Below, in pieces: positions 2,061 through 12,558 of a DNA stretch of 22,550 bases. Numbering within the stretch: position 1 is the first letter of the stretch; the number at the start of each line of letters is the position of its first letter. The notes beneath the pieces were generated by a model. It searched no databases. It was not told the DNA's origin and saw nothing but the letters and a program-made list of their open reading frames with translations. Source of the stretch: a virus; IMG/VR virus record IMGVR_UViG_3300023210_000247, positions 1 through 22,550 of that record; one strand, 5' to 3'. The position numbers were made by a program, and so were the translations under genes.

Positions 2061-4004
2061 ATGGCTAGAAAAACTATATTCCAACAGTTAAACAACTTAT
2101 TTGGACCGGAAATAAAAAGACCCGATAATAAGTCTCGATATTCTATAAACGATAAAGAGTTATTAAAAACTAAGTCAAAAGAAGAATATGACTATGAAAA
2201 ACTAAAACTACAACAAGATAAATATTTATCAGGAATGTGGCAAAAGGTTGATAACGAGATTTATCAACACTCTATATATTATGAAACAACAAGGTTAGCT
2301 TCATATGCAGATTTTGAGGGTATGGAATTTTTCCCTGAAATTGCGGCAGCATTAGATATAATGATGGAGGAGTCGACAACCTTAAATCCTGAAAATAAAG
2401 TGATAAACATATTTTCAGAAAGTAAAAGAGTTAGAAGGGTGTTGGAAGACTTATTCTTCAACAGATTAGATATACACACTTCATTACCTATGTGGACAAG
2501 AAACACATGTAAATATGGTGATAATTTTTTATTTTTAAATATTGATAGTGAGGAAGGTATAACAGGTGTTAAACAACTACCAAATATAGAAATCACTAGA
2601 AAAGATAATGAAGGTTTTGGTGCAAATTCGGTAAATGCTGAAGAAGATAGTTTTAACCCAGTTAAGTTTGTTTGGGGTCAGAGAGATATTGAATTTAATG
2701 CGTGGCAGGTTGCACACTTTAGACTATTAGGTGATGACAGAAGATTACCTTATGGTACTTCTATGTTAGAAAAGGCTAGACGTATATGGAAACAATTATT
2801 ACTTTCTGAAGATGCTATGTTAATTTACAGAGTTACAAGAGCACCAGAAAGAAGAATCTTTAAAATATTCGTAGGTAACATTGATGAAGCAGATGTTCCT
2901 TCATATGTACAAAAAATTGCTAATAATTTTAAAAGGAGTCCTGTTATAGACGAAAAAACTGGGCAGATAGATACTAGGTATAATCAAATGGCTCAGGATC
3001 AAGATTATTTTATCCCTGTAAGAGATCCAAACGCACCTAGTCCTATAGATACCTTACCAGGTGCAACTAACCTTTCAGAGATTGCAGATATTCAGTATCT
3101 ACAGAAGAAATTATTTACTGCTCTTAGAGTACCTAAACCGTTTTTAGGTTTCGAGGAGGCAACTGGTGATGGGAAGAACTTAGCGTTACAAGATATTAGA
3201 TTCGCAAGAACAATCAATAGGATACAACAATCGATGTTACAAGAATTAAATAAGATTGCAATAATCCATTTATACATTTTAGGGTTAGAGGATGAATTAG
3301 AAAATTTCACTTTAACACTTAACAACCCTTCTACACAAGCAGAGATGTTAAAGATAGAACAAACACAAATGAAGGTTACTTTATATAAAGATGCAGTGTC
3401 TGATGCAGGTAACGGGTTCGGATCTATGTCTATGACTAGAGCAAGAAAACAAATATTAGGGATGTCAGATGAGGACATTAGAAGTGATTTAGAACAACAA
3501 AGGTTAGAGAAAGCAGCTGCGGCTGAAATGGAACAAACTGCTAATATTATTAAGAAGACTGGTTTATTTGATAGAGTTGATAAATTATATGGTGACTTTG
3601 ATACTTTGGTTTCAGATGGTGCAACCGCTGAAGGTGGTGAAGGTGGTGAAGGTGGTGAAGAAACTGACTCTGGAGGTGGATTTGGTGCAGACGCTGGAGG
3701 TGGATTTGGTGCAGACATAGAAAGCGCTGCAGATAGTATGGCTGGTGGTGAAGCAACCGCAGCTGAAACCGACACAGCAGTAGAGTCAACAAATAAAAAA
3801 GATAATCTTTTAATGGAGGAAAGTAGACGAAAATATGTATCTAAAACTAAAAAATATCAAGGGATATATCTTAAAAGACTTACAGAAAGTTTAGGGAAAA
3901 ATGAACATATTTATGATTTAGATTCAGTAGAAAAAGATACTGATATTATAAACAACAAAATAGAGGATATGTCAAAAGAAATAGATAAAATCATCAAAGA
4001 CTAA
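2061..4004 (+). CDS. Portal vertex protein (T4 gp20-like)
   Basis: The portal is the dodecameric ring at the packaging vertex. It nucleates head assembly, docks the terminase and later joins the neck. At 647 residues it is about 120 longer than T4 gp20 (524). The conserved body covers roughly residues 60-500, with portal-like stretches such as YGTSMLEKARRIWKQLLLSE, RAPERRIFKIFVGN and VPKPFLGFEEATGDGKNLA. The extra length is C-terminal: a Gly/Glu-rich linker at about 524-565 (three GAAGGTGGT codon repeats, then two GGGFGAD units), followed by a charged, probably helical tail. The gene sits between terminase and the prohead genes, as expected, and has a late-type motif upstream. The low-complexity linker is the unusual part. 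Confidence 0.95.
   Translation: MARKTIFQQLNNLFGPEIKRPDNKSRYSINDKELLKTKSKEEYDYEKLKLQQDKYLSGMWQKVDNEIYQHSIYYETTRLASYADFEGMEFFPEIAAALDIMMEESTTLNPENKVINIFSESKRVRRVLEDLFFNRLDIHTSLPMWTRNTCKYGDNFLFLNIDSEEGITGVKQLPNIEITRKDNEGFGANSVNAEEDSFNPVKFVWGQRDIEFNAWQVAHFRLLGDDRRLPYGTSMLEKARRIWKQLLLSEDAMLIYRVTRAPERRIFKIFVGNIDEADVPSYVQKIANNFKRSPVIDEKTGQIDTRYNQMAQDQDYFIPVRDPNAPSPIDTLPGATNLSEIADIQYLQKKLFTALRVPKPFLGFEEATGDGKNLALQDIRFARTINRIQQSMLQELNKIAIIHLYILGLEDELENFTLTLNNPSTQAEMLKIEQTQMKVTLYKDAVSDAGNGFGSMSMTRARKQILGMSDEDIRSDLEQQRLEKAAAAEMEQTANIIKKTGLFDRVDKLYGDFDTLVSDGATAEGGEGGEGGEETDSGGGFGADAGGGFGADIESAADSMAGGEATAAETDTAVESTNKKDNLLMEESRRKYVSKTKKYQGIYLKRLTESLGKNEHIYDLDSVEKDTDIINNKIEDMSKEIDKIIKD
3630..3716 (+). repeat. 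Short in-frame tandem repeats in the portal C-terminal linker
   Basis: Three exact copies of the 9-mer GAAGGTGGT run from 3630 to 3656. They are followed by two 23-bp copies (3670-3692 and 3694-3716, period 24) encoding GGGFGAD. All repeats keep the reading frame, so the result is a flexible Gly-rich linker. Confidence 0.9.
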
Positions 4005-4043: not shown

Positions 4044-4805
4044 ATGGAAAATTTTGGTAATATAAAAGACACTTTTAAAAATATAGTGGTTGAGTCTGTT
4101 TTAAGGAAAGATAAAGAGGGAAAAAAAGTATTCTCTAAATTTTTAAAAACGTTAAAAGAAAATAAAACATTAAGTGATCAATACTTAATTTATAAGAATT
4201 TACAAACTAAAAAGTTTAACGATGGTGGACAAGCCAGAGAGTATATTAAAGAAAATATAACTTTATTAAGAAATTTAAATGAGGGTCACATCCAAAAAGG
4301 AAATGACTATTTTTTAAAACTATTAAAAGGTGTGAAGATTATTAAAGAAAATGATTCATTTTATAATGATATATCCTATTTAACTAAAACTAAAAAAACC
4401 CCTTCTAATATTGATAAACTCAATACATCTACAAATAACATTGTTAGGTTAATGTTAGAAAAAGAAGATGAGGTAGTAGTAAAAGAAAGTTTAGATATAC
4501 CCCCTAGTATAATTACTAAATTAGCGGTTGACAAATTTAATAATAGATACTCAAATATAAGTGAATCGGAAAAAGAAATCATAAAAACTATTTTAAATGG
4601 TAATGATGAAGATAAATTAAATACGTTTATTAAATTAAAAAAGGGTTGTATTGAGACTATCGATAAAAAACTAGATGAATCATCAGACATAGATTTAAAA
4701 GACAAGTTATTGAGAGTCAAAGACAAGTTACTAAATACTGATTTTAGTTTAGATAATTTTAAAACGGATATAGGTAAGATTTATGATTTAAATGAATCTA
4801 TATAA
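4044..4805 (+). CDS. Unrecognised head-module protein between portal and protease (253 aa)
   Basis: I do not recognise this family. The 253-residue product is Lys/Glu/Asn-rich and looks almost entirely alpha-helical, with no signal peptide or membrane segment. It occupies the slot where T4 encodes the small prohead-core proteins gp67 and gp68, so a core or assembly role is a positional inference only. The N-terminus reads MENFGNIKDTFKNIVVES, a short amphipathic segment ending in VVE|S. The C-terminus ends in DLNESI, which contains LNE|S, the same tetrapeptide found at the predicted capsid protein cleavage site. The last 14 codons plus stop are repeated exactly further downstream (5597-5641), outside any gene. 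The ATG follows an A/T-rich leader. Confidence 0.85.
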   Translation: MENFGNIKDTFKNIVVESVLRKDKEGKKVFSKFLKTLKENKTLSDQYLIYKNLQTKKFNDGGQAREYIKENITLLRNLNEGHIQKGNDYFLKLLKGVKIIKENDSFYNDISYLTKTKKTPSNIDKLNTSTNNIVRLMLEKEDEVVVKESLDIPPSIITKLAVDKFNNRYSNISESEKEIIKTILNGNDEDKLNTFIKLKKGCIETIDKKLDESSDIDLKDKLLRVKDKLLNTDFSLDNFKTDIGKIYDLNESI

Positions 4806-4811
4806 TAATAA
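4761..4811 (+). repeat. 51-bp direct repeat, copy 1
   Basis: Covers the last 14 codons and stop of the 4044 gene plus 6 nt. It is identical over 51 bp to 5597-5647 (offset 836). Each copy lies just before a gene that begins with the same N-terminal peptide tag. Confidence 0.97.
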
Positions 4812-4828: not shown

Positions 4829-5548
4829 ATGAGAATTAAAAAAAATGGAAAGGTTATTAGACTAACCGAATCGGATTTACAAAAAATTGTAAAAAGGATA
4901 TTAAAAGAGAGTAATGAAAATCCAACACAATATCATAGATATAGAGACGGATCAAATCCAGGGATAGAGGACTTTTTTCAAAACCCAACAGATAGAACAT
5001 TACAAGATAGACTTAAACAACAATTAAATGATGATGTTTATTCTAATGTAGATAATCCAACCAACATTGGTAAAGGGACTAGAAAATTATTTATTTATTT
5101 TAACGGTAGAAAGATGACAATAGAAAGGTTTATTGATCAGGTACAAAGGGATGGTGAAGATGGTTTTTGTCATGTTATAGACGAATATGAATACGATAAT
5201 AAGTTTCTTGGTGCCACTAAAATAACCATTAAAACTGAACAAGGTCCTTGTGAAGAGGAAGAAGAGGAAATCGATGTTGATGTTGATAAACCCGTTGTTG
5301 ATAAACCCGTAGAAAAAATAGGTTGTCCTCAAGGTGATAAATGGTATGAGAATGTATTAAAAATAGGTACACCACCAACAGGTGGTTTTATGTTTAACTG
5401 GAGAGAAGTTATACGCCTCAAAATGGGAAGTTCAAAAGAATCGGTATGTAATTGTTTTCGAAAGAAAGGTGGTAGGTATAAAAGAATACATGACACCGCT
5501 CCTGGTTTTTGTGTAGCCAAACAACGCAGAATTCCATTCCGCCCATAA
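4829..5548 (+). CDS. Putative prohead cargo protein with L-x-E N-terminal tag (239 aa)
   Basis: The body of this protein is not recognised. Residues 1-27 (MRIKKNGKVIRLTESDLQKI followed by VKRILKE) form a basic, amphipathic segment ending in LKE|S. This matches the L/I-x-E consensus cut by gp21-type proteases. The gene at 5670 has the same segment (20 of 27 residues identical), yet the two proteins share nothing obvious beyond it. I infer a capsid-targeting propeptide that is removed during maturation. The mature part has an acidic stretch (EEEEEIDVDVDKPVVDKPVE) and a C-terminal half with several Cys (GCPQGDKWYE, VCNC, GFC) and basic residues, which could bind DNA or metal. The preceding gene ends 23 nt upstream. 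The start has an A-rich leader and no Shine-Dalgarno sequence. Confidence 0.85.
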   Translation: MRIKKNGKVIRLTESDLQKIVKRILKESNENPTQYHRYRDGSNPGIEDFFQNPTDRTLQDRLKQQLNDDVYSNVDNPTNIGKGTRKLFIYFNGRKMTIERFIDQVQRDGEDGFCHVIDEYEYDNKFLGATKITIKTEQGPCEEEEEEIDVDVDKPVVDKPVEKIGCPQGDKWYENVLKIGTPPTGGFMFNWREVIRLKMGSSKESVCNCFRKKGGRYKRIHDTAPGFCVAKQRRIPFRP

Positions 5549-5596
5549 AAACTAAAGAATCCATTTTGGAGTGAAGTCGAACACACTAATACAATA

Positions 5597-5647
5597 AAAA
5601 CGGATATAGGTAAGATTTATGATTTAAATGAATCTATATAATAATAA
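5597..5647 (+). repeat. 51-bp direct repeat, copy 2 (relic tail of the 4044 gene)
   Basis: An exact copy of 4761-4811. It preserves 14 codons (encoding KTDIGKIYDLNESI) and a TAA, but has no gene body upstream. It lies 22 nt before the ATG of the second tagged gene (5670), so it marks a duplication or cassette-exchange junction. The segment from 5549 to 5596 separates it from the stop of the previous gene. Confidence 0.95.
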
Positions 5648-5669
5648 CAATAATAATGATAATTAAAAA

Positions 5670-5978
5670 ATGAGAATTAGAAAAAACGGAACAGTTGTAA
5701 ATCTTACAGAATCAGATTTACAAAGAATTGTTAAGAGAACATTAAATGAACAAACCTCTGATTTACCTTCATGTAAAAAAGTAATGGGTGATTTAGCGGA
5801 GGAAGAAATGGAAAAGAATCAAAATAAAGGTAAACGTGATAAAGGTAGTAAACCCCCTATAGGTACCGTTGGTACGGCAGAACAAAAAGTTACTTTAAAA
5901 ACAACTGTTGGTCCAATAGGTGAATCTGGTGTTGTAGTTGCATATAAGGGTCGTACACCTTGGTGTAAGTGCGGATAA
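5670..5978 (+). CDS. Small putative prohead cargo protein with L-x-E N-terminal tag (102 aa)
   Basis: The body is not recognised. Residues 1-27 (MRIRKNGTVVNLTESDLQRI then VKRTLNE) match the N-terminus of the protein at 4829 and end in LNE|Q, fitting a gp21-type cleavage site. After the tag, the remaining 75 residues are hydrophilic and Lys/Gly-rich, ending in PWCKCG with a CxC pair. If the tag is removed the mature peptide is about 8 kDa and basic, like several T4 internal head proteins. A 51-bp repeat of upstream sequence precedes it, and the terminator at 6026-6062 lies 48 nt after its stop. The internal-protein role is inferred from the tag and position. Confidence 0.8.
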   Translation: MRIRKNGTVVNLTESDLQRIVKRTLNEQTSDLPSCKKVMGDLAEEEMEKNQNKGKRDKGSKPPIGTVGTAEQKVTLKTTVGPIGESGVVVAYKGRTPWCKCG

Positions 5979-6025
5979 AACTATTAAAAAAACGGATTAG
6001 GACCGTTATTGTCTACGGACAGTAT

Positions 6026-6062
6026 AAAACCCACTAAAGTTCGCTACTATAGTGGGTTTTTT
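6026..6062 (+). terminator. Rho-independent terminator
   Basis: The 11-bp stem AAAACCCACTA (6026-6036) pairs with TAGTGGGTTTT (6050-6060). An upper 3-bp AGT/ACT helix caps it with a 5-nt TCGCT loop, and a T-run continues to 6062. It closes the transcript from the portal and cargo genes. The A-run on the 5' side means it could also work in reverse. Confidence 0.9.
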
Positions 6063-6074
6063 CATGTCTAAAAT

Positions 6075-6103
6075 TTGACATTTCGCGTCACAATCATTAT
6101 AAT
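6075..6103 (+). promoter_or_regulatory. Consensus sigma-70 promoter (TTGACA, 17-nt spacer, TATAAT)
   Basis: Perfect -35 TTGACA at 6075-6080 and perfect -10 TATAAT at 6098-6103, separated by exactly 17 nt. Transcription would start near 6110, about 40 nt before the ATG at 6150. It sits just after a terminator, so the downstream gene is probably expressed independently, early or constitutively, by unmodified host polymerase. No other gene in the window has such a promoter. Confidence 0.7.
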
Positions 6104-6149
6104 TGTAATATACAAACTTTAAAAATAACAAAAAAATAAATAGATATGA

Positions 6150-6587
6150 ATGAAAGTAGGAAAAGAATTAAAACTGAATTTATTAAATAACTACAAAACT
6201 AAAATCGGTACAGTCAATAATAAAGAATCTAAAAGTTTATACATTAACCTTAGTGCTTGGGGAGAGATAAACAACATTGATGAAAACACAAATTACGAAT
6301 CGGTGTTGAGGAATCTAAGAAAAAAAATCAAACAAAATCTTAATAATAAGTTAAACGAAGAAATCTTCCACAATAATAAATATATAGTGGATTTAGATAT
6401 GAGATCATCTGGATTTGTAACCACCAAAAGAAGTTTTATGTCCTGTGAGATAACACTATATCAGAAGAAAGGGTTACCTATAAATCAAATAAAATTACTA
6501 AACGAATCAAAAAAATTAATATACGATGTAGCAAATAATTGTTTAGATAATAATAATTATTTTACCTTTTATAAAACTAAAAAATAG
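6150..6587 (+). CDS. Unrecognised 145-aa protein with its own promoter
   Basis: I do not recognise this family. The product is 145 residues, mixed alpha/beta by inspection, with a conserved-looking block in the middle (VDLDMRSSGFVTTKRSFMSC followed by EITLYQKK). It has no tag ending in L-x-E at the N-terminus, unlike its neighbours. An independent terminator (6026-6062) and a perfect sigma-70 promoter (6075-6103) lie upstream, a layout typical of a moron inserted in a late operon. The ATG at 6150 is used because the nearby ATG at 6146 opens only a 13-codon frame. The stop overlaps the start of the 45-bp repeat that carries the next late-type motif. Confidence 0.8.
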   Translation: MKVGKELKLNLLNNYKTKIGTVNNKESKSLYINLSAWGEINNIDENTNYESVLRNLRKKIKQNLNNKLNEEIFHNNKYIVDLDMRSSGFVTTKRSFMSCEITLYQKKGLPINQIKLLNESKKLIYDVANNCLDNNNYFTFYKTKK

Positions 6588-6623
6588 AGTTTTTATTGTA
6601 ATGATATATTTATAATTAAAGTA
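6579..6623 (+). repeat. 45-bp promoter-region repeat, copy 1
   Basis: Matches 7503-7547 at 44 of 45 positions (difference at 6597, T against A). It includes the stop codon of the 6150 gene and the late-type motif, and ends just before the ATG at 6628. The copy is therefore a duplicated regulatory segment. Confidence 0.95.
6603..6620 (+). promoter_or_regulatory. Putative late promoter motif (core ATATTTAT), upstream of 6628 gene
   Basis: Core ATATTTAT at 6606-6613 in the context GATATATTTATAATTAAAG, 14 nt before the ATG. It is identical in context to the motif before the protease gene. Confidence 0.55.
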
Positions 6624-6627
6624 TATT

Positions 6628-7446
6628 ATGGAAACATTATTAGAAGAGAAAAATCACATGAGAAAGTTAATGGGGTTATCTTTGTTAACTGAAGAAGAAA
6701 CCCCTAATACTAATTATACTGGTGGTGATATTTTAGATGCGACAATGTTAAATGTTAGTTCAAAAGAATTACAACCTCTCATAGATGAATTAAATGGTAT
6801 AGTAGTAAATACTTCAAAAAAAGTAGGGGTTAAAAAGCCTAATGATACAAATGGTGTACTTGTTACGTTAGTTAGTAAAAATATATCTAAATCACAAATG
6901 AATGGTACAAATTTTCAACAAATTCAAGTTGGGGATAGAAATGGAGGTGTACCTAACCAGTTTATGGAAAATGACACTTCTTTTGACTCTGTGTTTGTTC
7001 AGAACTTATATGGTAAAATCACTCCAAATGAAATAGGTTCACAAAAAGATATAGATGGTGGTACGTATTGGTTATCTAAGCGTTTTAATGATGAATCTAA
7101 AGGTGATAAAAATTATGAAAATTTCTTTAATAAAACAAAAAAATCCAAGTCTGTTAATATCATCAATAACTTATTTGGTGGAAAAGGTGGAGATTCGGAT
7201 AGGTTAGCAGCAACTATGTCAGCAATAATGGGATTAAATGATGCAAGTAGGGTGAATGATTTCATCGACACTAACGGTACTCATTCGGGTATAGATGCTA
7301 GAGATGTAGCTATAAATAAATTGTATATTGAATTAAAAAATCTATTAAAACCATATATGGAAAAAAGTAAACAATTCGTAACAGATTTAATAAACAATAA
7401 GTTTAAAAAATTCCAAACATCATTGGTTTCGCAAACTCCAAGGTAA
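6628..7446 (+). CDS. Unrecognised head-module protein, possibly tagged prohead cargo (272 aa)
   Basis: I do not recognise the family. The N-terminus is MRKLMGLSLLTE|EE after a short METLLEEKNH leader, so residues 20-22 (LTE) provide a possible gp21-type cleavage site after E22. An alternative start at M11 would keep the same motif. The remainder is hydrophilic and contains the conserved-looking stretches GGTYWLSKRFNDESKGDKNY, NNLFGGKGGDSDRLAATMSA and a helical C-terminus (residues about 230-265). It lies directly before the prohead protease, and the promoter regions of the two genes are near-identical 45-bp repeats, so they are probably expressed together late. A role inside the head is inferred from location and N-terminus only. 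Confidence 0.82.
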   Translation: METLLEEKNHMRKLMGLSLLTEEETPNTNYTGGDILDATMLNVSSKELQPLIDELNGIVVNTSKKVGVKKPNDTNGVLVTLVSKNISKSQMNGTNFQQIQVGDRNGGVPNQFMENDTSFDSVFVQNLYGKITPNEIGSQKDIDGGTYWLSKRFNDESKGDKNYENFFNKTKKSKSVNIINNLFGGKGGDSDRLAATMSAIMGLNDASRVNDFIDTNGTHSGIDARDVAINKLYIELKNLLKPYMEKSKQFVTDLINNKFKKFQTSLVSQTPR

Positions 7447-7502
7447 TTAATACATAACTTTTATTTTACATTTAATATAGTCATTTTTTTTCATTTAAAC
7501 AA

Positions 7503-7547
7503 AAAAAATAGAGTTTTTATAGTAATGATATATTTATAATTAAAGTA
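7503..7547 (+). repeat. 45-bp promoter-region repeat, copy 2
   Basis: Near-identical copy (44/45) of 6579-6623. It carries the late-type motif 11 nt before the protease ATG. It lies in the 111-nt gap between the 6628 gene and the protease gene, which otherwise contains only AT-rich sequence. Confidence 0.95.
7527..7544 (+). promoter_or_regulatory. Putative late promoter motif (core ATATTTAT), upstream of protease gene
   Basis: Core ATATTTAT at 7530-7537 in the context GATATATTTATAATTAAAG, 20 nt before the ATG at 7558. Confidence 0.55.
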
Positions 7548-7557
7548 AATCATTATT

Positions 7558-8247
7558 ATGGAAATAATTAAAAAAAACGAAATAAATAAAAAAGGCATTC
7601 TCATCGAATATGATGCTGGATACATTTCCCCAAAAGATAATAAAAGTTTCATTAACGAAGTTAGTAAACTATCAGAAGGTCAACAAGTAGTTAGTGACCC
7701 TTTAATTGTTTATGCTGTTATGCAAAAATATGGGGTGGAGAATAAAAATGAAAGGGTGTACCCTGAAGCTCTATTAAGAAAAGAAGCGGAAAACTATTTA
7801 AAACTTGTTAAAGAAAAAAGAGCAATGGGTGAAGCTGATCACCCAGAGAGTTCTATTATCGCAGTAAGTAGGATATCTCATAACGTCATAGACTTATGGT
7901 GGGAAGGTAATGTATTAATGGGAAAACTCCAAATCATTATGTCACCAGGTTTCGTTAATCAAGGAATTATTTCATGTGAAGGTGATAGAGTGGCTAACTA
8001 CATTCGTCAAGGATTAAAAATCGGTGTATCATCAAGAGGTGTTGGTTCGTTAGAAAAAGAAAATGGTAAGAACATAGTACAAGATGATTACGAACTAATC
8101 TGCTGGGACATTGTAACTTCCCCATCAACTCCTGGGTCTTGGATATATAATGAAGAACCATCTAGAGAACAACAAATGTCAGAGTCTAATAAAAAGAATG
8201 AAGATAATTTATTAAAAGATTCTTTATCTAATTTTTTATTAGATTAA
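7558..8247 (+). CDS. Prohead core protease (T4 gp21-like serine protease)
   Basis: This enzyme matures the prohead by cutting scaffold, capsid protein and internal proteins after L/I-x-E. The 229-residue length is close to T4 gp21 (212). The expected catalytic His is H95 in GEADHPESS and the catalytic Ser is S158 or S159 in IGVSSRGVGS, the spacing and context of the herpes/HK97-type protease fold. The stretch YELICWDIVTSPSTPGSWI is also typical of the family. Candidate self-cleavage sites near the N-terminus are INE|V (after E34) and LSE|G (after E40). It lies immediately upstream of scaffold and capsid genes, as in T4. The acidic C-terminal tail is probably a scaffold-binding or self-cleavage region. 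Confidence 0.95.
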   Translation: MEIIKKNEINKKGILIEYDAGYISPKDNKSFINEVSKLSEGQQVVSDPLIVYAVMQKYGVENKNERVYPEALLRKEAENYLKLVKEKRAMGEADHPESSIIAVSRISHNVIDLWWEGNVLMGKLQIIMSPGFVNQGIISCEGDRVANYIRQGLKIGVSSRGVGSLEKENGKNIVQDDYELICWDIVTSPSTPGSWIYNEEPSREQQMSESNKKNEDNLLKDSLSNFLLD

Positions 8248-8366: not shown

Positions 8367-9743
8367 ATGGCTGAGAAAAAGAAATCAATCATCGAAGAGG
8401 CTTTGTTAGAAGCAAAGACTTTAGAGGATGCCTTAAAAGCCAACACGAAAGAAATGCTTTCGGCGCATATGTCGAAAGAAATTGAAAGTATCGTAGAGTC
8501 GTCTTTGAGAGAAAAAGATGAAGAAACTATTGAATTAGACGATATTGAATTAAAAGGATCCGCAGATGATATGGACGTTGAGTTAGAACTTGACAATGAA
8601 GATGACGATTCAGAAGAATCTGAAGAGTTGGGGATGGAAGTTATGGATTTACCAGATGATGGTGAAGAAGTTGCTGATATCGAATTAGACCTCGACACTG
8701 ATCTAGATTTAGATGGTGAAGAAGAACTAGAATTAGACCTTGAACCTATGGGGATGGAATTGGGTATGGACGATGTATTAGATATGACAATGTCTTCAGA
8801 TGATGAAGTTGTTAAAGTATTTAAGAAATTAGGTCCAGACGATGAAGTTGAAGTAGTTAAAGACGCTGATGGAATTCATTTGACAGATAACGAAACGGGT
8901 GCAGAGTATTACATTAAAGAATCTTTGGAAGAAATGGAAATGATAGACGAAGATGATGAAATGTGTGAAGGTTGCGGTATGGACGAAGATGACGAAGTTG
9001 TGTATGAAATCGAAATGGCTGATGAATTAGGTGAAGGACACCAAAGTTTTTCTGACCGTAGAAGTGAAAGAAGAGGGATGAGAAAACATTATGGTGAAAA
9101 CCCTGATGGTTTGGATGCTCACTTATCACATTCTAAACAAGGGTATAACGATAGAATGGATGACTCATTAGGTATGGATGAAGATTATGGAATGGATGAA
9201 GATGATGATGCTTCTTTGGAGGAAGATCATACATTGGCTAGAACTAAAGGATACCAGAGAAAAGGTGGACATAGAAATAGACAAACTTCTGAAACTAGAA
9301 ATTCACGTAAACCAGTCATTACTAGAAAACCAAAAACTAATACTGTTGCAGAATCTAAAATGTTAAAAGAGTACAATGAGTTGAAAGGTAAAAATACCGA
9401 ATACAAAAAAGCTCTTAATATATTTAAAGACAAACTTAATGAAGTGGCTCTATTCAATACTAACTTAGCGTATGTAAATAGATTGTTCACAGAAAATTCG
9501 ACAACTAAAAAAGAAAAAATGTTAATTCTTAAGAGGTTTGACAATGCTGATACAATCAAAGAATCTAAATCTATTTATAAAACAATTAAAACTGAGTTAG
9601 ATGCGAAGACACCAATCAGTGAGTCTGTTGAAAATAAAGTTAATAAAACTGTTAAGTCTTCAAAATCTGATTTGAATGAATCTACTGCTTATGTAGACCC
9701 ACAAATTTCAGCGATTAAAGATTTAATGAAAAGAATATCATAA
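8367..9743 (+). CDS. Prohead scaffold (core) protein, T4 gp22-like
   Basis: The scaffold fills the prohead, sets its size and is degraded by the protease before packaging. The call rests on position between protease and capsid protein, an extremely acidic middle (about residues 54-300, rich in Asp/Glu/Met), and a helical basic C-terminal part (about 340-458) with the block LNEVALFNTNLAYVNRLFTE. At 458 residues it is much longer than T4 gp22 (269), mostly from the acidic region. Several gp21-type sites are visible: LLE|A after E15, LNE|V, and LNE|S near the C-terminus (SDLNE|STAYVDP), the last identical to the capsid site. A CEGCGMDEDDE segment adds an unusual Cys pair. The capsid gene follows after 34 nt. 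Confidence 0.9.
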   Translation: MAEKKKSIIEEALLEAKTLEDALKANTKEMLSAHMSKEIESIVESSLREKDEETIELDDIELKGSADDMDVELELDNEDDDSEESEELGMEVMDLPDDGEEVADIELDLDTDLDLDGEEELELDLEPMGMELGMDDVLDMTMSSDDEVVKVFKKLGPDDEVEVVKDADGIHLTDNETGAEYYIKESLEEMEMIDEDDEMCEGCGMDEDDEVVYEIEMADELGEGHQSFSDRRSERRGMRKHYGENPDGLDAHLSHSKQGYNDRMDDSLGMDEDYGMDEDDDASLEEDHTLARTKGYQRKGGHRNRQTSETRNSRKPVITRKPKTNTVAESKMLKEYNELKGKNTEYKKALNIFKDKLNEVALFNTNLAYVNRLFTENSTTKKEKMLILKRFDNADTIKESKSIYKTIKTELDAKTPISESVENKVNKTVKSSKSDLNESTAYVDPQISAIKDLMKRIS

Positions 9744-9777: not shown

Positions 9778-11535
9778 ATGGGACATTTATTAAATTCAGG
9801 TGAAGTCGGAAATATCGGACTTGAACACCTAAAACAAATAAGATCTAAAACTATTTCAAAGTGGAACAAAATTGGTTTCCTAGAAGGTTTAAAAGGTCAC
9901 GTAAAAGAGAACATTGCTCAGTTATATGAAAACCAAGCATCCTCTATGCTAAACGAATCAACGGGAGCTGGCTCCTCTGGTTCATTTGAGACTGTCGTCT
10001 TTCCAATCGTAAGACGTGTATTCTCTAAATTATTGGCTAATGACATCGTATCAGTACAAGCGATGAACATGCCAATTGGAAAATTATTCTACTTTGTACC
10101 AAAAACATCATCTACACAAGTTCCTTTGAACGGTAGTAATGGTGATGGTAATGGTGCATTACCAGAATGTGTAATTAGTGGATGTAATGCTGATACAGTT
10201 ATCACTCCATTCTTAACTAAATCACTTTATGATTTATTTTATAATGATGGTTTATTTGACGCATCTAAAGGTAAAAAAGTTATTTTTGCTGGTGCTGGTT
10301 ACTATGGTGTAACTATTAATGCTGCTGGTGAGAATGTTACTACAGCTTTGGCTTCTCAGCCTTTAGCTTCTGACAATTCATTTAGAAGTGTTAAGATGTG
10401 TGTAACAGGATTCTCTGACACAAATGCTGGTAGATTAACTGGTCCAGATGGTAATGAAATGGATACTGAAACTTTCTTAGCTTCTTTAAATGTTGTTTCA
10501 GAAGTTGAAATAGTTGATAACGATGGTAAAACAATCATCGCTGCTGGTGGTGCAGTACCATTTAGATTAGTGGCTCAAGTATATGGAAAAGGTATTGTAA
10601 ATTACAATAATATCTGTACTCCTGATGGTTGTCTATTAATTGAATTAGATTTGACACACCCAGCGTGTATCGATTGTGGTTCTGCTAACCTTGATGGTTA
10701 TGTAGGTGCCGCTTCAGGTTCAACATTCCCATTGACTGGGTTTACAGTTGCTTGGAGTAGATACGAAACATTAGAATTTGCTACTGAGATGGGAGAAGTT
10801 TCTTTCGAACTTGATGAAGTAGTTGTTTCTGTTACGGAAAGAAAACTAAGAGCTACTTGGTCTCCAGAATTGGCACAAGATGTTAGTGCATTCCACAACA
10901 TTGATGCTGAAGCTGAATTAACAGCTTTATTGTCTGAACAAGTTGCGGCTGAAATCGATAGAGAGATCTTGAGAGATTTGAGAGTCGGTGGAGCTTGGAC
11001 ATTGAGATGGGATTACAACGGATGGAAAAGAACGACTAGTGGTGGTTTCAACGCTTACACTCAAAAAGAGTGGAATCAAACGTTGATTACTAAAGTAAAT
11101 CAAGTTTCTGCTCAAATTCACAAAGCAACTTTAAGAGGTGGTGCGAACTTTGTCGTAGTATCTTCTGAAGTTTCAGCGATTTTTGACGACTTGGAATACT
11201 TCCACGTATCAAACGCTAATCCAGAACAGGATCAGTACAATATGGGAATTGAGAAAATTGGTTCATTAGGTGGACGTTACACTGTGTATCGTGACCCTTA
11301 CGCTCCAGCTAACTCAATCATCATTGGACATAAAGGTAAGTCTTTATTGGATACTGGGTACATTTATGCACCTTACGTACCGTTACAACTTACTCCAACG
11401 TTGCAAAACCCGTTCAACTTCGCACCAACGAAGGGTATCATGACGAGATACGCTAAGAAGATGGTTAATAACCGATTCTATGGTACGATTACAGTTGATG
11501 GTGTTCAAACGTTTGACATCAATGAATTGAGATAG
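9778..11535 (+). CDS. Major capsid protein (T4 gp23-like)
   Basis: This protein forms the hexamer shell with the HK97 fold. The N-terminal 60 residues are a helical, basic propeptide ending in SSMLNE|STGAG. A gp21-type cut after E60 is very close to T4 gp23, which is cut after E65. The family core is clear at FPIVRRVFSKLLANDIVSVQ (residues 75-94) and in the C-terminal part (DYNGWKRTTSGGF, FVVVSSEVSAIF, TPTLQNPFNFAPTKGIMTRY). At 585 residues it is about 60 longer than T4 gp23 (521), with extra length around residues 115-350. That region has seven Cys, including C280-x4-C285-x11-C297-x2-C300. No late-type motif precedes it, so it is probably transcribed with the scaffold gene. Codon use includes more GC-ending codons than neighbours, as expected for a highly expressed gene. 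Confidence 0.97.
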   Translation: MGHLLNSGEVGNIGLEHLKQIRSKTISKWNKIGFLEGLKGHVKENIAQLYENQASSMLNESTGAGSSGSFETVVFPIVRRVFSKLLANDIVSVQAMNMPIGKLFYFVPKTSSTQVPLNGSNGDGNGALPECVISGCNADTVITPFLTKSLYDLFYNDGLFDASKGKKVIFAGAGYYGVTINAAGENVTTALASQPLASDNSFRSVKMCVTGFSDTNAGRLTGPDGNEMDTETFLASLNVVSEVEIVDNDGKTIIAAGGAVPFRLVAQVYGKGIVNYNNICTPDGCLLIELDLTHPACIDCGSANLDGYVGAASGSTFPLTGFTVAWSRYETLEFATEMGEVSFELDEVVVSVTERKLRATWSPELAQDVSAFHNIDAEAELTALLSEQVAAEIDREILRDLRVGGAWTLRWDYNGWKRTTSGGFNAYTQKEWNQTLITKVNQVSAQIHKATLRGGANFVVVSSEVSAIFDDLEYFHVSNANPEQDQYNMGIEKIGSLGGRYTVYRDPYAPANSIIIGHKGKSLLDTGYIYAPYVPLQLTPTLQNPFNFAPTKGIMTRYAKKMVNNRFYGTITVDGVQTFDINELR

Positions 11536-11557: not shown

Positions 11558-11589
11558 AAAAGGGTGGGATTTATTTCTCACCCTTTTTT
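11558..11589 (+). terminator. Rho-independent terminator after the major capsid gene
   Basis: AAAAGGGTGGGA (11558-11569) pairs with TCTCACCCTTTT (11576-11587) through a 12-bp stem with one G-U pair, a 6-nt loop (TTTATT) and a T-run to 11589. It lies 22 nt after the capsid stop. Confidence 0.92.
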
Positions 11590-11597
11590 GTTTTACG

Positions 11598-11613
11598 ATA
11601 TATTTATTATTAT
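11598..11613 (+). promoter_or_regulatory. Putative late promoter motif (core ATATTTAT), upstream of 11626 gene
   Basis: Core ATATTTAT at 11600-11607 in the context CGATATATTTATTATTATA, directly after the capsid terminator and 18 nt before the next ATG. A promoter is expected here because of the terminator. Confidence 0.6.
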
Positions 11614-11625
11614 ATTAGCAGTTAT

Positions 11626-12504
11626 ATGAGAATTAAAAAGAAACATGTATTATTAGAATCTAATTTAATTGACACATCAGTTGAGTTTTCCCCACAAGAA
11701 AAAAGACTTCTATGGGTATTAAATAAAGAATTTGGACCACACGACTATAAATCTTTTAATATATGGAAATCAGCGGTATGGTTAATAGAGTTATTTGATA
11801 TACCTTATGATATAGCTTATGAAATATCATACACATATTATTATAATGGTGATAAGTTATTTAGTGAACATAAGCCGTTAAGAAAGTTACAAAATACTAC
11901 TGAAATATTTTTTAGACATTTGGTTGATTTTATTAGGGACTTTAAAGTGGAGTTATCATCCAAATCCACTGGCGATAATGATGGAGATAATGATTCACAT
12001 GTAGGTATTTTAGATATAGATTTTATTGATGATGATTATGGTAATTATAAAACAGAATTTCTCCAAAGAAATATACTTTTTTGGGATAATAGTTATGGGT
12101 TTACTTTATATATCCCACTAAATGCTCGTGAGGTTGGGGAATGGCCCAATAAAAAATATCTTTATAGTACAGAAACTGACCCTAGGTTAATTATGGTTAG
12201 TGTTAAGTTTAGTGAAATAAAAACACCTAATGAGGATGATAAATATGATTATGAGGGTGACCCTGATAAATTTAAGGTAGATGTGAATATTAGAATTGGT
12301 AATGACACTACATCTGGAAAAGAGGGTGGTGGTTATTCATTAGATAATTGGATGAGTTTTGATGTACCTACACCTAAACCATTATCTAAAGAAAAAATAC
12401 ATGATACTTTAAAGGGCATTTATAATGATGTAATAGAAAAACTTAAAAAAACAAAGTTTAATTTACCATCTGGTGTTGAACCATTAAATTTAAATGATAT
12501 TTAA
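11626..12504 (+). CDS. Unrecognised late protein after the capsid gene; 3' end altered by a tandem duplication
   Basis: The family is not recognised. The 292-residue product starts MRIKKKHVLLE|S, a short basic segment like the starts of the tagged proteins at 4829 and 5670 and ending in LLE, a gp21-type site. The body is acidic, aromatic and mixed alpha/beta, with FGFTLYIPL-like beta stretches around residues 140-165 and a helical C-terminus. In T4 the vertex protein gp24 follows gp23, but I see no gp24-like sequence. The last 20 codons lie in a 58-bp tandem duplication. The duplication creates the present stop; without it the frame would continue KTND to a stop at 12572-12574. The gene is the last on the + strand before the convergent junction. 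Confidence 0.85.
   Translation: MRIKKKHVLLESNLIDTSVEFSPQEKRLLWVLNKEFGPHDYKSFNIWKSAVWLIELFDIPYDIAYEISYTYYYNGDKLFSEHKPLRKLQNTTEIFFRHLVDFIRDFKVELSSKSTGDNDGDNDSHVGILDIDFIDDDYGNYKTEFLQRNILFWDNSYGFTLYIPLNAREVGEWPNKKYLYSTETDPRLIMVSVKFSEIKTPNEDDKYDYEGDPDKFKVDVNIRIGNDTTSGKEGGGYSLDNWMSFDVPTPKPLSKEKIHDTLKGIYNDVIEKLKKTKFNLPSGVEPLNLNDI
12443..12500 (+). repeat. 58-bp tandem repeat, unit 1
   Basis: Exact 58-bp unit lying inside the C-terminal codons of the 11626 gene and directly abutting unit 2. The length is not a multiple of three, so the duplication shifted the frame at the 3' end. Confidence 0.98.
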
Positions 12505-12558
12505 AAAAACAAAGTTTAATTTACCATCTGGTGTTGAACCATTAAATTTAAATGATAT
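12501..12558 (+). repeat. 58-bp tandem repeat, unit 2
   Basis: Exact copy of 12443-12500. It contains the present stop (12502-12504) of the 11626 gene and then a non-coding remnant of the old gene end up to 12574. The rest of the convergent junction (12559-12578) is AT-rich with no clear terminator. Confidence 0.98.

Follow-up and report, generated by a model that had tools for sequence, protein, structure and literature searches.

Why would two neighbouring phage genes encode proteins that begin alike and then have nothing in common? The genes are in IMGVR_UViG_3300023210_000247, a virus record of 22,550 bases; by the window we mean this whole stretch, which is what we analysed. An earlier note on this DNA had proposed that the shared N-terminus is a portable propeptide, which takes diverse cargo into the head and is cut off by a gp21-type protease. 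Wherever sequence can test that interpretation, it was supported. In our view, the 27-residue segment is probably (at roughly 80%) a capsid-targeting propeptide that is removed by gp21 and whose cargo is swapped as cassettes.

The window carries a T4-type head module on the + strand. Its genes run terminase, gp20, g4044, the two tagged genes, g6150, g6628, gp21, a scaffold-like gene and gp23, which is the gp17-gp20-gp21-gp22-gp23 order of a T4-type phage head module. Among cultured phages, the closest capsid proteins are only distant matches, those of Flavobacterium phage immuto (38%), Microcystis phage Mel-JY01 (33%) and Rhodothermus phage RM378 (30%). Going by the nearest cultured relatives alone, the host is probably one of the Bacteroidota. 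The genes of the module, with a downward arrow at candidate cleavage sites, are:

211-2007, + strand: terminase
2061-4004, + strand: portal, gp20 family (PF07230, E = 1.5e-78)
4044-4805, + strand: head-module gene g4044, conserved N-terminus MxNFGxIKDTFxxIVVE↓S
7558-8247, + strand: prohead protease, gp21/S77 family (PF03420, E = 4.5e-23; phrog_207, E = 2.5e-39)
8367-9743, + strand: scaffold-like gene at the gp22 position, with sites near the N-terminus (SIIE↓EALLE↓A) and the C-terminus (DLNE↓S)
9778-11535, + strand: major capsid protein gp23, LNE60↓S (PF07068, E = 2.3e-71)
11626-12504, + strand: head-module gene g11626, conserved short leader MRIKKKHVLLE↓S

The tagged proteins

Three genes of the module encode proteins with a leader of the proposed kind. 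Two share what we call tag 1, and the third begins with a different leader, tag 2:

4829-4909, + strand: tag 1, copy A (MRIKKNGKVIRLTESDLQKIVKRILKE↓S), proposed capsid-targeting propeptide, 27 residues
4910-5548, + strand: cargo body A, 212 aa; no Pfam or PHROG match
5670-5750, + strand: tag 1, copy B (MRIRKNGTVVNLTESDLQRIVKRTLNE↓Q)
5751-5978, + strand: cargo body B, 75 aa; a homologue lies directly after g4044 in contig L339
6628-6693, + strand: tag 2 (METLLEEKNHMRKLMGLSLLTE↓E), dissimilar to tag 1, ends in L-x-E
6694-7446, + strand: cargo body C of the tag-2 protein, 250 aa

Both tag-1 reading frames are present as the earlier note had claimed (4829-5548, 239 aa, and 5670-5978, 102 aa), and 20 of their first 28 residues are identical. 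BLASTP gave an ungapped alignment of residues 1-31 of the two proteins, in which 20 residues are identical (E = 9e-11), and the tag pair's alignment score of 101 compares with a maximum of 59 over 2000 shuffles. The bodies alone score like shuffles (p = 0.08), which agrees with the claim that they are unrelated. The eight synonymous codon differences that had been reported are also there (N6, L12, T13, S15, V21, K22, R23 and E27): the 28 codons of the pair comprise 12 identical, 8 synonymous and 8 non-synonymous ones (pS 0.61, pN 0.16). A homologue of body A, in L047, stands behind a shorter variant of tag 1. An AlphaFold model of the 4829 protein, from a two-row alignment, was unusable (pLDDT 37), and the helix that it predicts at residues 14-30 is a hint only.

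The earlier note had suggested a search of related phages for the tag. A degenerate scan of viral contigs for LTESDLxxIVKR found at least 120 stretches, while about 0.3 would be expected by chance (as estimated from base frequencies). When these were read in frame, nearly every match was an ORF, and its Met was usually 6, 7 or 11 residues upstream of LTE. With a slightly relaxed pattern, we obtained at least 165 distinct tag proteins. Their 163-164 testable bodies fall into at least 110-111 unrelated clusters (BLASTP at 1e-3), and the largest cluster has 9 members. Thus, the tag does recur at N-termini on diverse bodies. We set aside the matches in L022 and L114, which are far from the ORF start, have few residues after them and look like chance.

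Where does the conservation end? Across the family, the tag is 22-27 residues long. Aligning 102 representatives gave the consensus MKKIIRLTESDLxRIVKRVIxE, beyond which almost nothing is conserved. Of the 165 matches listed, every one has I, L, V or M at position +13, and 161 have E at position +15; past this E, the information per column falls from 4.1 to 1.4, 0.6 and 0.6 bits. [L/I]-x-E is found at +15 in 152 of the 165 listed proteins and at each other offset in just 0-2 of them, so conservation stops at this motif, as had been proposed. This boundary is not a selection effect because the search pattern fixed residues only up to +11.

For 88 pairs of tags from the same locus but with unrelated bodies, pS was 0.48 and pN was 0.15, and pS was 0 in none of them. 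These codon comparisons indicate that the tag is conserved as a peptide, under peptide-level selection.

Tag 2 is also portable. The pattern ETNxMRxLMGLxLLxE matched 9 proteins with 8 unrelated bodies; those outside the window are in L091, L092, L221, L348, L349, L352 and L357. (A relaxed scan of the first loci for LMGL had mixed true and chance matches, which the stricter pattern separated.) Tags 1 and 2 are dissimilar, yet both end at L-x-E, which argues that the motif matters, although the boundary of tag 2 was partly selected by the LLxE in its search pattern.

By eye, the core of tag 2 (NKMRKLMGLNLL) looks similar to the C-termini of the scaffold (8367-9743 and its relatives L167-L213; LRMKDLMTKIK) and of gp21 (LDLMKRLSDYL), and perhaps these share a core-binding motif. 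Also, the interval between gp21 and gp22 holds runs of small genes in L280, L285, L293, L310, L321 and L322. The leaders of these genes, MKNIISESELKRMVKKVVRE↓E and MNIRKIIKEELLKE↓V among them, are probably additional variants of the tag.

The cargo itself is mostly nondescript. LysM and PG_binding_1 are the only clear Pfam matches among the 102 representatives, and endolysin-type PHROGs match few of them; the others have weak matches or none. The bodies are mostly acidic (median pI 5.5, with 35% above 8), unlike the internal proteins of T4, which are basic. The tagged proteins that resemble peptidoglycan-binding or LysM proteins are recurrent (L063, L066, L067, L081 and others; L048). They would be odd cargo for a head, and possibly they are used during DNA entry.

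As for cultured phages, tblastn of the tag against them gave no match, and the tag is absent from the nearest cultured relative that we examined, Flavobacterium phage immuto (its genome apart from 99-111 kb, or about 12 kb). The string LTESDL was not found in open papers. Among 8 stretches from bacterial genomes, a tag-like ORF was found only in a Prochlorococcus single-cell contig and in a Prevotellaceae MAG. The former (L221/L222/L361) is a 63,985-bp contig of a T4-like phage, with S77 and both tags, within the single-cell genome assembly; this could be an infection or carry-over.

The prohead protease and its candidate sites

The protease of T4, gp21, cleaves after L/I-X-E (PMC9026906), which is how most of the listed tags end. 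In phages with the tag, gp23 has the invariant sequence YENQAS[HF]LINE↓A/S at the position where the gp23 of T4 loses its propeptide, and near the C-terminus of the scaffold is LIE↓S. In the window, both sites are LNE↓S (E60↓S61 of gp23 and E438↓S439 of the scaffold), just as the earlier note had stated. Candidate N-terminal sites are also kept across relatives in gp21 (GILIE↓Y), in the scaffold (SIIE↓EALLE↓A), in g4044 (mostly [ILV]xE↓S) and in g11626, whose short leader is a possible further propeptide.

We also asked whether the tag occurs together with the protease. Among records of at least 36 kb with the tag, 19 of 40 have S77, including 17 of the 17 with gp23; the window has gp20, gp21 and gp23. 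The earlier note had raised the case of a tag that is mainly in phages without a gp21-type protease. This is not what we found: the tag records in which S77 is missing have neither gp23 nor HK97 capsid genes, and they lack gp20, except for G057, which is the same record as L022 (the chance match) and has a partial gp20 at its end. They look like pieces of genomes without the head module.

We had considered the co-occurrence with S77 as strong support, and we now count it as consistency only. S77 is present in just 3 of 44 random contigs overall, but it is in 2 of the 3 that are over 100 kb, so the association is consistent with the propeptide reading and not decisive. (Among tag records over 100 kb, S77 was not found in 2 of 14.) As a cleaner and independent sampling, we selected records of at least 60 kb by the clade of their gp23. 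The tag was in 11 of these 21 records and was not seen in the other 10, versus 0 of 10 random records, two of which have S77.

If the tagged proteins are head proteins, then their genes might be near gp21, gp22 and gp23, as the earlier note had expected. This part of the proposal stood for relatives of the window and not for large genomes. In 20 loci (fetched via gp23 or the body of the 4829 protein, plus the window), we found 30 tags, and these are in the gp20-gp21 or gp21-gp22 intervals or a few kb past gp23. In large genomes, tagged genes are mostly tens of kb or more from gp21. For example, one 241-kb record has about 14 tagged genes, almost all at 2.5-36 kb, and its head genes are at 66-71 kb. 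In records with S77, 44 of 45 copies of the tag are on the strand of the protease.

Proposed exchange of tagged genes

Comparison of the window with its relatives brought out conserved DNA on both sides of the tagged genes, as well as a repeat around the tag-2 gene:

4764-4811, + strand: left anchor, native copy (3' end of g4044, its stop codon and intergenic DNA)
5600-5647, + strand: left anchor, duplicated copy before the second tagged gene; no g4044 frame
5986-6150, + strand: right anchor, 89-96% identical across phages with a different cassette or none
6018-6068, + strand: hairpin with a GTGGGTTTTTT tail in the right anchor, terminator-like (inverted repeat, 5-nt loop)
6075-6103, + strand: promoter-like site in the right anchor, 12/12 match to TTGACA-17-TATAAT (consensus match only)
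6553-6629, + strand: 77-nt direct repeat before the tag-2 gene
7477-7553, + strand: second copy of the 77-nt repeat (82%), before gp21

The two copies of the 48-nt left anchor, which the earlier note had missed, are identical and lie just upstream of the two tagged genes. The element is also identical or nearly so in more than 12 other contigs, whose g4044 DNA is about 74% identical. In other words, the upstream element is conserved as DNA and the tag as a peptide.

What follows the left anchor varies. In the window, it is the 239-aa gene, the copied element and the 102-aa gene. In L339, it is a relative of the 102-aa gene alone. In L043, L072, L090, L334-L336, L338 and L343, a 90-aa tagged gene is in this place, and in L248/L333 (one contig) there is no gene. 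The hairpin and the promoter-like site (the latter a consensus match only) are kept across these alternatives. In L269, L273, L278 and L284, the insertion site between g4044 and g6150 holds untagged genes, some of which look PAS-like by eye.

The simplest history, as we infer it, is that tagged genes were swapped as cassettes by recombination at shared seams. The window then holds two tandem cassettes, and a copy of the left anchor precedes the second as well as the first. We rejected a fresh tandem duplication as the origin of the pair: a 20% difference separates the two tags, whereas the 48 nt upstream of them are identical, and alternative single cassettes stand in L339 and L043.

The tag-2 gene is bracketed by the 77-nt repeat. 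Its 34-nt core is 97% identical, and this core occurs a third time, in weaker form, at 11584-11617. Where relatives lack the tag-2 gene, the repeat stands before gp21. It is possibly a late promoter element.

Interpretation and known systems

During prohead assembly, the amphipathic helix of the tag (L-T-E-S-D-L-x-x-I-V-K-R-x-L/I) would bind the core or the scaffold and take the protein fused to it into the prohead. Cleavage by the gp21-type S77 protease would follow, after the [L/I]-x-E that the tags carry, and the freed body would remain in the head until its injection together with the DNA. The tag is portable, with more than 100 unrelated bodies behind it. Tag 2 would do the same job for the 6628 protein, and tagged genes would be exchanged between the 3' end of g4044 on the left and the hairpin and promoter-like site on the right. 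More broadly, we lean towards a general-purpose system for loading the head in an uncultured clade of T4-like phages, with at least two interchangeable leaders, one protease motif, more than 110 families of cargo, roughly twelve or more cargo proteins per phage in some cases, swaps of anchored cassettes, and injection.

Some observations count against a propeptide. The cargo is acidic, and LysM and peptidoglycan-binding domains would also suit a role in the tail or in lysis; about half of the records in the gp23 clade have no visible tag; and most tagged genes of large genomes are far from gp21. The tag might instead be a docking helix for another phage structure (the tail, a membrane or a site of replication) that is never cut, with the E at the end of the helix. 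The recognisable domains of the cargo and the distance from the head module in big genomes fit this idea, but it does not explain why conservation stops exactly at [L/I]-x-E, why the dissimilar tag 2 stops at the same motif, why gp23, gp22, gp21, g4044 and g11626 keep [LIV]-x-E near an end, or why tagged genes recur within the gp20-gp23 interval. We consider it unlikely.

Far less probable is ordinary paralogy, in which the bodies of the tagged proteins diverged quickly while the N-terminus was kept. Some bodies do form small families, and the pair in the window could descend from one duplication that included the upstream DNA. But there are too many unrelated clusters of bodies, different recognisable domains stand behind the same tag, and the 102-aa gene's relative alone in L339 and the 90-aa gene in L043, L072 and L090 occupy the same site, as two alternative cassettes. 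The least credible explanation is that the shared sequence acts as DNA or in translation (a promoter, ribosome loading or a recombination seam at the 5' end) and that the peptide is incidental. The DNA just upstream is indeed conserved and duplicated, but this element ends before the tag, and within the tag, synonymous sites have diverged (pS 0.48-0.61) and the peptide has not.

If the tag is a propeptide, then it is functionally like the capsid-targeting sequence (CTS) of T4's IPI, IPII, IPIII and Alt: both are short N-terminal leaders on unrelated proteins, with an L/I-x-E site for an S77 protease, in phages with T4-type head genes. The principle is already known, because the internal proteins of T-even phages were described as diverse with only the CTS conserved (PMC3012670); their cargo varies between related T4-type phages (PMC9026906, PMC3012670). 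Going by the descriptions, the leaders of T4 are about 10-20 residues and few per phage, while those described here are 22-27 residues with a consensus of their own, with up to about 14 tagged genes per 241-kb record, over 100 families of bodies, and at least two types of tag in the same phages. In phiKZ-like phages (201phi2-1, phiKZ and SPN3US), the prohead protease also cuts inner-head proteins after glutamate (PMC9026906, PMC5694885), but the propeptides are often over 100 residues, the motif of phiKZ is S/A-x-E, and those two papers describe no short shared tag.

The exchange site may also have a precedent. Arbiol et al. in 2010 (cited in PMC4177764 and PMC3797505) reportedly described mobile regulatory cassettes of T4-type phages, in which small genes are exchanged between conserved intergenic seams with a promoter-like site and a hairpin. 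By that description, the arrangement may be comparable; here, part of a head gene (its 3' end) belongs to one anchor, and what is exchanged are genes with a putative capsid tag. Relative to the literature that we searched, what appears to be new is the family of tags, how large it is, the existence of tag 2 and the exchange site with its anchors.

It is hard to predict which proteins a phage injects along with its DNA, since their bodies lack relatives. The classic injected protein is IPI of T4, which inhibits a restriction enzyme of the host. The leader makes the prediction a sequence search: a gene that begins with LTESDLxxIVKRxIxE or ETNxMRxLMGLxLLxE encodes a candidate injected protein, so the head cargo of such phages could be listed from sequence alone. 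The more than 110 families of bodies, nearly all without a known domain, are plausible candidates for anti-defence or takeover proteins, and the head operon has a defined site at which tagged genes are swapped. Another use to try for the tag would be the loading of proteins into capsids.

Elsewhere in the module, a perfect 58-nt tandem duplication (12443-12558) spans the end of the 11626 gene and repeats its C-terminal coding sequence past the stop region.
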